From: Prochlorococcus sp. AG-436-C05
Lineage (GTDB): Bacteria; Cyanobacteriota; Cyanobacteriia; PCC-6307; Cyanobiaceae
Assembly: GCA_003209795.1 (NCBI GenBank)
Contig: QCPB01000011.1
Span: forward strand, 1-38,090
DNA: 38,090 nt
Direction: 5' to 3'
The notes beneath the pieces are model-generated. The model did no database searches. It worked only from the letters and a program-made list of their open reading frames with translations, and was not told the origin of the DNA. Positions 6,673 to 34,985 of this stretch are shown here, in pieces. The position numbers and the translations under genes are program-made. The number at the start of each line of letters is the position of its first letter. The stretch's first letter is position 1.

Positions 6673-7314
6673 CTAATGTTCAAAAATATTTGAGAATTTT
6701 AATATATCTAAATCAGCATGGACTGGAACAGTGTTAAAACATTTTTGAGCTAAATCCAGTCTACCTTCTCTTTTAAGAATGACTCTTAGTTTATGCATCG
6801 CTTCAATTAAATATCTAACGTCATTTGCAGCATAATCGACTTGATCACTTGTTAAATCTTCATCACGACCCCAATCACTGCTTTGTGAACTTTTGTCTAA
6901 TTCTATTCCTAAGAGTTCATTTATTAGGTCTTTTAATCCATGTTTATTTGTGTATGTTCTTGCTAATTTACTGGCTATTTTTGTACAAAAGATGTTCTTT
7001 GTATTAATTCCAAGGTTGCATTTAAGAGCCGCGACATCAAACCTTGCATAATGAAAAATTTTAATTATTTTTTCATCTTCAAATAAGTTTTGTAAATTAG
7101 GAGAAGAAGAAGTGTTAAGTTCAATTTTTATACAAGAAGTTAAGTTTAATTCATTAGATAGTTGGACTAAACATAATCTATCTCTCCCATGAATTAGTCC
7201 CATGGCTTCAGTATCCACTGCAATATATGATGAGGTTTTATAAAGATTATATAAATCGCTACTTATATCATTATGATAAATATTGATGTTTTTATTTTCT
7301 TCACTTTTCTCCAT
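6673..7314 (-). CDS. RNase D-like 3'-5' exonuclease (DEDDy)
   Basis: The protein is a stand-alone DEDDy exonuclease domain, as found at the N-terminus of ribonuclease D. Motif I is IAVDTEAMGL (Asp34, Glu36), motif II is FHYARFDVAAL (Asp93), and motif III is VDYAANDVRYL (Tyr161, Asp165). At 213 residues it lacks the HRDC domains of E. coli RNase D, which is usual for short cyanobacterial and alphaproteobacterial versions. It probably trims 3' ends of tRNA or other small RNAs. It is transcribed alone and is convergent with the 88-residue gene. Confidence 0.88.
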   Translation of the reverse strand: MEKSEENKNINIYHNDISSDLYNLYKTSSYIAVDTEAMGLIHGRDRLCLVQLSNELNLTSCIKIELNTSSSPNLQNLFEDEKIIKIFHYARFDVAALKCNLGINTKNIFCTKIASKLARTYTNKHGLKDLINELLGIELDKSSQSSDWGRDEDLTSDQVDYAANDVRYLIEAMHKLRVILKREGRLDLAQKCFNTVPVHADLDILKFSNIFEH

Positions 7315-32578: not shown

Positions 32579-33589
32579 TTAATTTTTTTTCCATGGTTTT
32601 AGCAATTTCTTTGCTTCTTTGATTGCTAAAGCCATTATTTCAGGGTATTCATATAATTTTTTGTTATTTTTGTTAGCAAATTGAATAAATGGCTGCATTA
32701 TTTTTCTTGCAGAACTTCCAAATGCAATTCCATCAGGGAAATTATTTCCGTTTAATAATTCATGAGTTTTTCCATTTGTTCCTCCAGCTAATTGAATTAA
32801 ACCTGGAGGCATATGAGATCCTATCGTTTCAAATAATTTAACTGTATCTCTACCTGTTGTTGGAGCTAGATCACCAGACATTGGTCTGCCATCAAGTTGC
32901 CAAATAATGGGAAGATTAAGTTCACAGAGCACTTCATATCTTTCCCAAAGAGCTTTCAAAAGATCATTTGGGGATTGTGGGGATTGATTTAATCCACAAC
33001 TTACAGATATTCTTTTTAATTTAGTTTCTGAATTTTTTAGAATGCGCACTACTTCTATAAAAGGAGCTATTCGATTTATTTCGGTATGAATTTCTACTGC
33101 ATCAGGCTTGATTATTTGAAGTGATGATGGCAGATTATCTTTGGAAAAATTAAATTCGTATTCAGAAATTAAATTTAAGGGACAACTTTTTATACACCTT
33201 CCGCAGCCATAACATTTGCTCTCTGTTACACCGTAATTATCAATTGCAAAGGTAGGACAAATATTTTCACATGGTCTTGGACAATTAGGCGGGCATTTCA
33301 ATGGGTCAAATTTTGCTTTGCGAAAATGTATATCTTTACCATCACAAATGCTTATCATTAAACCTGGGCAAGTGCCAAAAAATTCTTTCGACCATTGGAT
33401 ACCATTTCTTGCGGCTTGAGCTATCGACTGTTCAGCCGCAACATCAATGTAGTCGACTCCAGCAGCGGAATAAATAGCACACAAATCTTCAATAGCGTCA
33501 ATATCTTCATTGCTAGCACCACAAATTAACTTAACCCATTTATCCAATGTCTTTTTATTCTTTTCAAAAACTTCAACTTTAGAATTCAT
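32579..33589 (-). CDS. ldpA: Circadian light-input iron-sulfur protein LdpA
   Basis: LdpA senses redox/light state and tunes the period of the Kai clock in Synechococcus. The 336-residue protein has an N-terminal region, then two ferredoxin-like cysteine clusters, [14 protein letters not shown] and [12 protein letters not shown], able to hold two Fe-S clusters. The LdpA C-terminal domain follows with [34 protein letters not shown] and [12 protein letters not shown]. It overlaps the ndhN 3' end by 11 bases, a pairing that fits a redox link. Prochlorococcus has a reduced clock lacking KaiA, so its output may be altered. Confidence 0.92.
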
Positions 33590-34049
33590 TCAAAATGTAA
33601 TCATTGAGTGGTCTCCATTCAAGTTTTCTGGAACCTCCCATTTCAATTACAATTTGAAGTTTATTATCTTTAGTACAAATTGTAATTAAGCTTTCAAGTT
33701 CATCTTGAGATAAGACTTGACCTTCTAGTAACCACAATAATTTATTTTTGTCATTTTCATTAAATAATTCAGATGCTTGGGGTATAACTTGTTGAACTTC
33801 TCCAAGAGCACCATTTCTTCCTACACTTTGATGACCTAGGTGAGGAGGTCTGATGCCGTGCAATTTCATTAAAAACACTTCAGGATCTCCTAATCCTCTA
33901 GCGGAGGTTATGTAAGTTTTATAACCTTTAGCTCTCATTCTTCTTAAAAGACGAGTTTCATATCCACCCTCAAGAGGGGCAAACATCGCTAAACATTTAT
34001 TGTTTTTTAGATCATTATGAAACTTTTTTCCGGTAAGAAGTAATGGCAT
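33579..34049 (-). CDS. ndhN: NAD(P)H-quinone oxidoreductase subunit N
   Basis: NdhN is a cyanobacterial/plastid-specific NDH-1 subunit in the membrane-proximal arm, used in cyclic electron flow and respiration. The 156-residue protein has [13 protein letters not shown] at the start, [48 protein letters not shown] and the C-terminal [19 protein letters not shown] is placed about nine bases before the ATG, a usable ribosome binding site. Its 3' end overlaps ldpA by 11 bases, so the two are one transcription unit divergent from rplC. Confidence 0.96.
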
Positions 34050-34110
34050 AAAGATTTCCTTTATTTATATATTATTTCATTTTATGGTACTTGATGATGT
34101 ACAATTGAAA

Positions 34111-34145
34111 CTCGGTGAATTTTTAAGCTCGAAAGCTAGCCGAGC
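34111..34145 (+). promoter_or_regulatory. Hairpin region with alternative pairings upstream of rplC
   Basis: CTCGG (34111-34115) can pair with CCGAG (34140-34144) around an inner AGCT-CGAA-AGCT stem (34126-34137). Alternatively GCTCG (34127-34131) pairs with CGAGC (34141-34145). The two folds exclude each other. The position is in the ndhN-rplC gap; strand and transcription are not known. Confidence 0.35.
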
Positions 34146-34187
34146 CTCTGTAATTTTCACATTTTTTAGCGTTTCGTTAAAAAAATT

Positions 34188-34240
34188 AGGATGGGTTAAC
34201 CCAAAGAGAAACTATCTATTTTTTAGATAAGTCTCATCCT
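34188..34240 (+). promoter_or_regulatory. Candidate branched leader structure of the ribosomal operon
   Basis: AGGATG (34188-34193) pairs with CATCCT (34235-34240). Between them are GGGTTAACCC (34193-34202, sharing G34193) and the 6-bp hairpin TATCTA-TTTTT-TAGATA (34213-34229). A further small stem, CCTTT/AAAGG, is at 34268-34285. The array lies about 90 bases before the rplC ATG, as would suit an r-protein autoregulatory leader. Function is inferred. Confidence 0.45.
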
Positions 34241-34331
34241 TATAAAATTGTTTTTTGATTAGCTACCCCTTTAACTATTAAAAGGTTTAGAAAATTCAAA
34301 AATTAATTATCAGCTAGTCTACTCAAATCTT

Positions 34332-34985
34332 ATGTTGATAGGAATTTTAGGAAAGAAATTGGGCATGTCCCAACTTTTTGATGATGATGGTAATGCCGTA
34401 CCAGTCACTCTTATAGAGGCTGGTCCATGTCGTGTTACCCAATTAAAAACCCAGGCTTTGGATGGTTATACTGCCGTTCAAATAGGTTACGGTTTATCAA
34501 AAGATAAGCAGATGAGTAAGCCTGAGAAGGGACATTTACTGAAGTCAGGTGAAGAACTTTTAAAGCATTTGAAAGAATATAGAGTTGAAGAAACCTCCAC
34601 TTATGAAGTTGGAAATCAAATAACGGTTAATAATTTTGAGGTTGGTCAAAAAGTTGATATCAGTGGCAAATCTATGGGTAGAGGGTTTGCTGGTTATCAG
34701 AAAAGACATGGTTTTAGCAGAGGGCCCATGAGTCATGGTTCAAAAAATCATAGAGCTCCAGGATCCACAGGTGCAGGTACTACTCCAGGTAGAATTTATC
34801 CTGGTAAAAGAATGGCAGGAAGATATGGAGGAAAAAAAATTACTACTAAGGGTTTATTAGTAGTCAAGATTGATGACCAAAAAAATTTACTTGTGGTAAA
34901 AGGTTCTGTACCAGGTAAGCCCGGCTCAATTGTCAACATTAAGCCTAATAATGTTGTAGGAAAAAAAGGAGGTGAAAAATCATGA
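34332..34985 (+). CDS. rplC: 50S ribosomal protein L3
   Basis: L3 is an early-assembly 23S rRNA binder. The 217-residue protein has the N-terminal [32 protein letters not shown], the [21 protein letters not shown] loop reaching the peptidyl transferase centre, and [14 protein letters not shown]. It is the first gene of the operon in cyanobacteria, because rpsJ is elsewhere. No Shine-Dalgarno is seen before the ATG, unlike rplD, and the 282-base gap upstream is rich in stems. The stop overlaps the rplD start as ATGA. Confidence 0.98.
34967..34975 (+). promoter_or_regulatory. Strong Shine-Dalgarno for rplD
   Basis: AGGAGGTGA lies inside the end of rplC, about seven bases before the rplD ATG at 34982. 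It is the strongest ribosome binding site in the window and sets the rplD start. Confidence 0.8.

Follow-up and report, generated by a model that had tools for sequence, protein, structure and literature searches.

What does the gap between ndhN and rplC hold, and which ribosomal protein would control the operon that starts there? The stretch of DNA analysed here (the window, 38,090 nt) is contig 11 of an HL-type Prochlorococcus genome, and the named records nearest to it come from single cells of Prochlorococcus. Within it, ndhN lies on the minus strand (33579–34049) and rplC, the open reading frame for L3 and first gene of the operon, on the plus strand (34332–34985), with the leader between them. 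The S8 gene, rpsH, follows on the same strand ~6.2 kb past rplC in the relatives checked, with closely packed co-directional genes in two of them; the window contig itself ends before rpsH. The original prediction placed an r-protein autoregulatory leader in this gap, bound possibly by L4 or by another operon product. An “rplCD operon leader” had already been predicted as cluster 5 in Prochlorococcus SS120 and MIT9313 and in Synechococcus WH8102 (Axmann et al., 2005; PMC1242208). It shares with ours the gene position, a structured leader and a suggested autogenous control, which was put forward as a prediction only; unlike ours, it was not found in the HL strain MED4 and was likened to the L4-controlled S10 operon, and the main text names neither ligand nor anatomy. 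Besides, a 2020 survey of new ribosomal leaders does not mention cyanobacteria (PMC7247131), and a 2024 review sees no advance in the phylogenetic study of spc autoregulation and describes S8 operon control beyond E. coli and its relatives as unstudied (PMC10931766). We found no report of a cyanobacterial S8 operator in the main texts of the open-access literature searched.

The transcript is predicted to start at about 34111–34113. A −10-like hexamer, TACAAT (34100–34105, plus strand), is proposed from the sequence and from comparison with HL relatives, which conserve GATGATGTACAATTG; a sigma-70 scan did not list this hexamer among its reported promoters. The block TTTTATGGTACTTGATGATGTACAAT (34080–34105) is strongly conserved across HL genomes and probably holds the promoter, and the ndhN promoter on the opposite strand may overlap it.

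Comparison across relatives gives strong evidence of a conserved, structured leader in the gap. Folding the window sequence by itself proves little: the z-score of the fold energy is −1.4 for the entire gap (321 nt), too weak to serve as proof of structure, and −2.7 for the 137-nt domain at 34107–34243. The family set comprises 228 usable leaders from HL and LL Prochlorococcus, Synechococcus and relatives (148 HL, 80 non-HL), across which a hairpin P1 with a 9-nt loop ending mostly in GCUAGC, a hairpin P2 and a three-way junction P3 recur. The consensus fold of 31 non-HL leaders has both-sided changes in 18 of 32 pairs. A covariance model trained on these 31 picocyanobacterial leaders (R1) fully matches the window at 34107–34243 on the plus strand (E 9.8e-15), which is its sole match in window and genome, and it recovers all 71 leaders that were left out of training. 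Covariation was evaluated with our own R-scape-style implementation, using an APC-corrected G-test and a null in which substitutions are reshuffled along the tree. Against this phylogeny-aware null, 19 of 42 structure pairs are supported at E<0.05 in 98 aligned leaders, in an alignment that was fitted to the covariance model and thus leans toward the structure, P1 and P3b being visible from sequence anchors alone as well. In the all-against-all test eight pairs pass, and all are part of the structure. With a sequence-only alignment, almost nothing was significant among all column pairs because the helices slip out of register, and the analysis was redone with the covariance-model alignment and a two-set test. 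Aligned across picocyanobacteria and tested for covariation, the proposed structure is therefore kept, and uncompensated pair-breaking substitutions, which would have counted against it, were sought and none was seen. In Rfam searches, neither the window nor nine other cyanobacterial loci yielded a leader family above the gathering threshold, and eleven family leaders searched up to E=1 produced nothing plausible.

The conserved domain is built from three parts. An outer stem, P1b (GUGAA at 34115–34119 with UUCAC at 34156–34160), is the worst-aligned helix of the leader (73% paired), with five of its eight pairs covarying at E<0.05. Inside it lies the P1 hairpin GCUCG(AAAGCUAGC)CGAGC (34127–34145), near-universal in the picocyanobacterial family, whose stem is exchanged among relatives (GCUCG/CGAGC, GCCCG/CGGGC, GCUUG/CAAGC) and for which a competing AGCU/AGCU pairing offers an alternative fold. 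P2 (UUUUUUAGCG/CGUUAAAAAA, 34162–34183) is a 9-pair helix with 99% of cells paired and covariation in six of nine pairs (E<0.05). The three-way junction P3 (34188–34240), supported by consensus fold, covariation and window fold, has a closing stem AGGAU/AUCCU around P3a and P3b; in the window, AGGAUG (34188–34193) and CAUCCU (34235–34240) enclose GGGUUAACCC and an AUCUA...UAGAU hairpin. P3a, GGG(UUAA)CCC (34193–34202), varies in length within the family and keeps its pairing, and P3b (34204–34237) contains the internal loop discussed below. Further downstream, a small stem CCUUU/AAAGG (about 34268–34285) is apparent from the sequence, and comparison gives no support for a function. The hairpin with two folds, the branched element and the small stem had all been recognized at these positions in the original prediction; P2 and a pairing of the P1 loop with the region of the start codon had been missed. 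A long-range pairing (P4) of P3 with el3, the start-proximal partner of the P1 loop, is not claimed; the consensus fold gave no support for it. HL leaders also carry a run of six to seven U ~10 nt past P3 (34250–34255 in the window; e.g. loci L003 and L051), which is missing in other groups; the run adjoins no stem and is thus not a canonical terminator. An intrinsic terminator scan of the window returned none in the leader, the sole terminator-like site lying inside rplC at 34359.

The internal loop of P3b bears on the ligand. All 228 family leaders keep GA(A/U)ACU, a stem, (A/C)AGUC and the closing pairs. In the window these strands are GAAACU (34208–34213) and AAGUC (34229–34233), which by sequence comparison are equivalent to G639–U644 and A595–C599 of 16S rRNA. 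They are identical to the E. coli 16S strands (AAGUC at 595–599, GAUACU at 639–644) but for one bulged base, and the window genome's own 16S, reading AAGUC…GGAAACU, has the same core letters as the leader. At the S8 site in helix 21 of E. coli 16S, base triples form around G597-C643-U641 and A595-(A596-U644), and A642 is invariant (PMC4176348); the STS motif contacting A642 is retained in S8. The window contains both core strands of such a site, A595-A596-G597-U598-C599 and G639-A640-N641-A642-C643-U644 with N641 and A642 bulged, and helices flank the core on both sides (GA/UC outside, AUCUA/UAGAU inside), both of which covary; the match consists of eleven core letters plus flanking pairs. The equivalent of A642 is A34211. 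Relative to helix 21, the leader site is circularly permuted, with AAGUC lying 5' in 16S and 3' in the leader, an order that the leader shares with the E. coli spc operator. That operator, read from MG1655 as AUGGCGAAACUGCAUGA…UCAUGCAAGUCCC, has GAAACU at +6..+11 and AAGUC at +80..+84, and its U+11, A+80 and A+81 agree with the numbering of the published S8–mRNA complex (PMC4176348). Judged by these comparisons, P3b carries the core by which S8 recognises both 16S helix 21 and the spc operator, and S8, not L4, is the likely ligand of the leader. The presence of this core inside the branched element is new here.

The same hairpin occurs well beyond the picocyanobacteria. Of 53 cyanobacteria from outside the family, 46 have it in the 500 nt preceding rplC (one case, L315, being doubtful), and a strict pairing filter leaves 31 hairpins against 0.26 expected from shuffled sequences, with none on the opposite strand. 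A second covariance model, R2, was built from 24 S8 hairpins, all from cyanobacteria outside the family. In genome-wide searches of 15 genomes, every one of its seven matches with E<1e-3 is upstream of rplC. R2 is short and does not attain genome-wide significance in picocyanobacteria; in a local search of 50 family loci, 17 matched at E<0.05, and P3b is its best match in the window (E 8.8e-5). Applied to the E. coli spc region, R2 did not match the operator, probably due to its 68-nt loop, and the site was read directly instead. A second, weak R2 match in the window (7161–7219, minus strand, E 0.29) is probably due to chance; in a genome of another family, a second S8-hairpin-like match (G391:C1:1708085-1708116, E 0.007) was seen outside the rplC leader. 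R1 gave only weak partial matches outside the family, and P1, P2 and the loop-to-start pairing were not found there, unlike the S8 hairpin, which is the only leader part found across cyanobacteria. By these comparisons, almost every cyanobacterium sampled has the same probable S8 device ahead of its main ribosomal operon or, where that operon is split, ahead of the part with rpsH.

Gene order in the exceptions helps to tell the candidate ligands apart. Seven genomes have no hairpin within 500 nt of rplC, and in five of these (G393, G412, G425, G486 and G477) rpsH is apart from rplC. Here 3.6–4.3 kb separate the hairpin from rpsH downstream of it, and the hairpin immediately precedes rplV or rpsS, whichever opens the unit. 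In the other two, it lies ~650 nt upstream of rplC (G388) or near a contig end (G418). Loci L330–L334, from genomes of families f13 and f33, show a ribosomal cluster interrupted ahead of rplV or rpsS, and rplC is found elsewhere. Since all five split genomes keep the hairpin upstream of the rpsH unit, it stays with rpsH and not with rplC or rplD. That the ligand is another product of this shared part (L22, S3, L16, L29, S17, L14, L24 or L5) and the likeness to an S8 site coincidental is very improbable. These genes likewise accompany the hairpin where the operon is split. However, the match to the solved S8–mRNA complex extends to the two strands, their order, the asymmetric bulge and the pairs on either side, and it recurs across cyanobacteria.

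Classical S10-type control, with L4 from the second gene as the leader-binding repressor known from E. coli, is hardly more plausible and in our opinion very unlikely. The operon does include rplD, Axmann et al. likened the leader to the E. coli S10 operon, and P1 and P2 are conserved in a role for which S8 does not account. The E. coli S10 leader bound by L4 is also structured and located upstream of the rplC-rplD-rplW-rplB genes. However, its first gene is another one, the cyanobacterial leader matches no Rfam family, and the S8 hairpin is the sole part of it conserved across cyanobacteria. In the split genomes this hairpin leaves rplC and rplD and follows rpsH, and thus the element does not stand upstream of the rplC/rplD operon, the position expected of an S10 (L4) leader. 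The idea of an r-protein autoregulatory leader is therefore well supported, whereas L4 as its ligand is not supported, and the other option named at the outset, another operon product, was the right one, the conserved internal loop being the S8 recognition core.

With S8 as the likely ligand, the closest relative is the E. coli spc operator in the rplE initiation region. Both have the core GAAACU...AAGUC, the strand order, the asymmetric two-base bulge and an operon encoding S8; rpsH lies inside the controlled unit of the cyanobacterial site as judged from synteny only, and it is also downstream of the hairpin in the split genomes. In contrast, the spc operator spans the start codon of rplE inside the operon, whereas the cyanobacterial site belongs to the rplC leader, where it precedes all genes of a longer, fused operon and is part of a multi-helix domain. 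We therefore class it as an S8-type site at a position new for this kind and not as a spc operator. The distance from the S8 site to the AUG is ~100 nt here and roughly 115–430 nt in other cyanobacteria, too far for the kind of direct block on initiation that S8 exerts at rplE in E. coli.

Within the picocyanobacteria, the P1 loop offers a possible connection to the start codon. In all 228 family leaders, six of its bases (el1; GCUAGC at 34135–34140 in the window) are complementary to an element, el3, whose centre is ~17 nt 5' of the AUG; in the window, el3 is GCUAGU at 34313–34318, 14–19 nt 5' of the rplC AUG. Parsimony on the leader tree places 15 substitutions in the six-pair el1–el3 core, and each of the 15 keeps a standard pair (G-C to A-U and U·G to C-G are among the exchanges), compared with none of 15 for the adjoining seventh position. 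The el1–el3 duplex is predicted to be worth −7.7 kcal/mol in the window, and −11.6 kcal/mol in Synechococcus. In the covariation test the el1–el3 pair scores were not significant; both elements vary little, and the support comes from the event count. The loop sequence recurs downstream of P3 as el2 (GCUAG) in 78 of 80 non-HL versus 1 of 148 HL leaders, and this additional copy could compete. At non-HL loci such as L155 and L187, the stretch from el3 to the rplC AUG is pyrimidine-rich (e.g. TACCTCCC) and has no Shine-Dalgarno sequence, a composition that would suit S1-dependent initiation.

Based on these comparisons, we consider it highly probable that the leader of the fused S10–spc operon carries an S8 operator. 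We infer that excess S8 binds P3b and thereby represses the operon, beginning with its first gene, and that in picocyanobacteria the output is likely translational, via a clamp formed by el1 and el3. S8, encoded by rpsH about 6 kb downstream, would bind P3b when it exceeds 16S rRNA and would thereby stabilise the P1-P2-P3 domain. In the folded domain, the P1 loop (GCUAGC) could then pair with GCUAGU or GCUGGC, located around positions −19 to −14 relative to the AUG of rplC. Such a clamp would hinder initiation at rplC, and the rest of the operon would follow via coupling or decay. Since we observed el1–el3 complementarity in no cyanobacteria but the picocyanobacterial family, the clamp cannot be the general mechanism. 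Going one step further, the picocyanobacterial leader may be an S8-operated two-state RNA switch, in which el1 and, outside HL, el2 compete for el3, and S8 on P3b decides on operon translation without a Shine-Dalgarno sequence; we offer this extension tentatively, as one that may well prove wrong.

The alternative that survives best keeps S8 as the ligand, like our preferred explanation, and departs from it solely in the output: S8 may act on mRNA stability or transcription elongation and not on rplC initiation, and the el1–el3 pairing may be a separate constitutive feature. This would agree with an S8 site far from the start codon, with E. coli S8, which also acts by mRNA destabilisation on upstream genes (reviewed in PMC10931766), and with the U run behind P3 in HL leaders. 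Nevertheless, the run comes without an adjoining terminator hairpin and is missing outside HL, and the el1–el3 pairing is conserved and adjoins the AUG. We regard an output of this kind as a live possibility, somewhat short of an even prospect.

Taken at this strength, our data point to a single S8 operator that fronts the main ribosomal operon of almost all cyanobacteria sampled and is kept with rpsH when the operon breaks up. The expected regulator would shift from L4 to S8, and the comparison gives the exact letters to mutate. Cyanobacteria are thought to initiate translation largely without Shine-Dalgarno sequences (PMC5607370), and the RNA loop-to-start clamp proposed here would operate in organisms of this kind.
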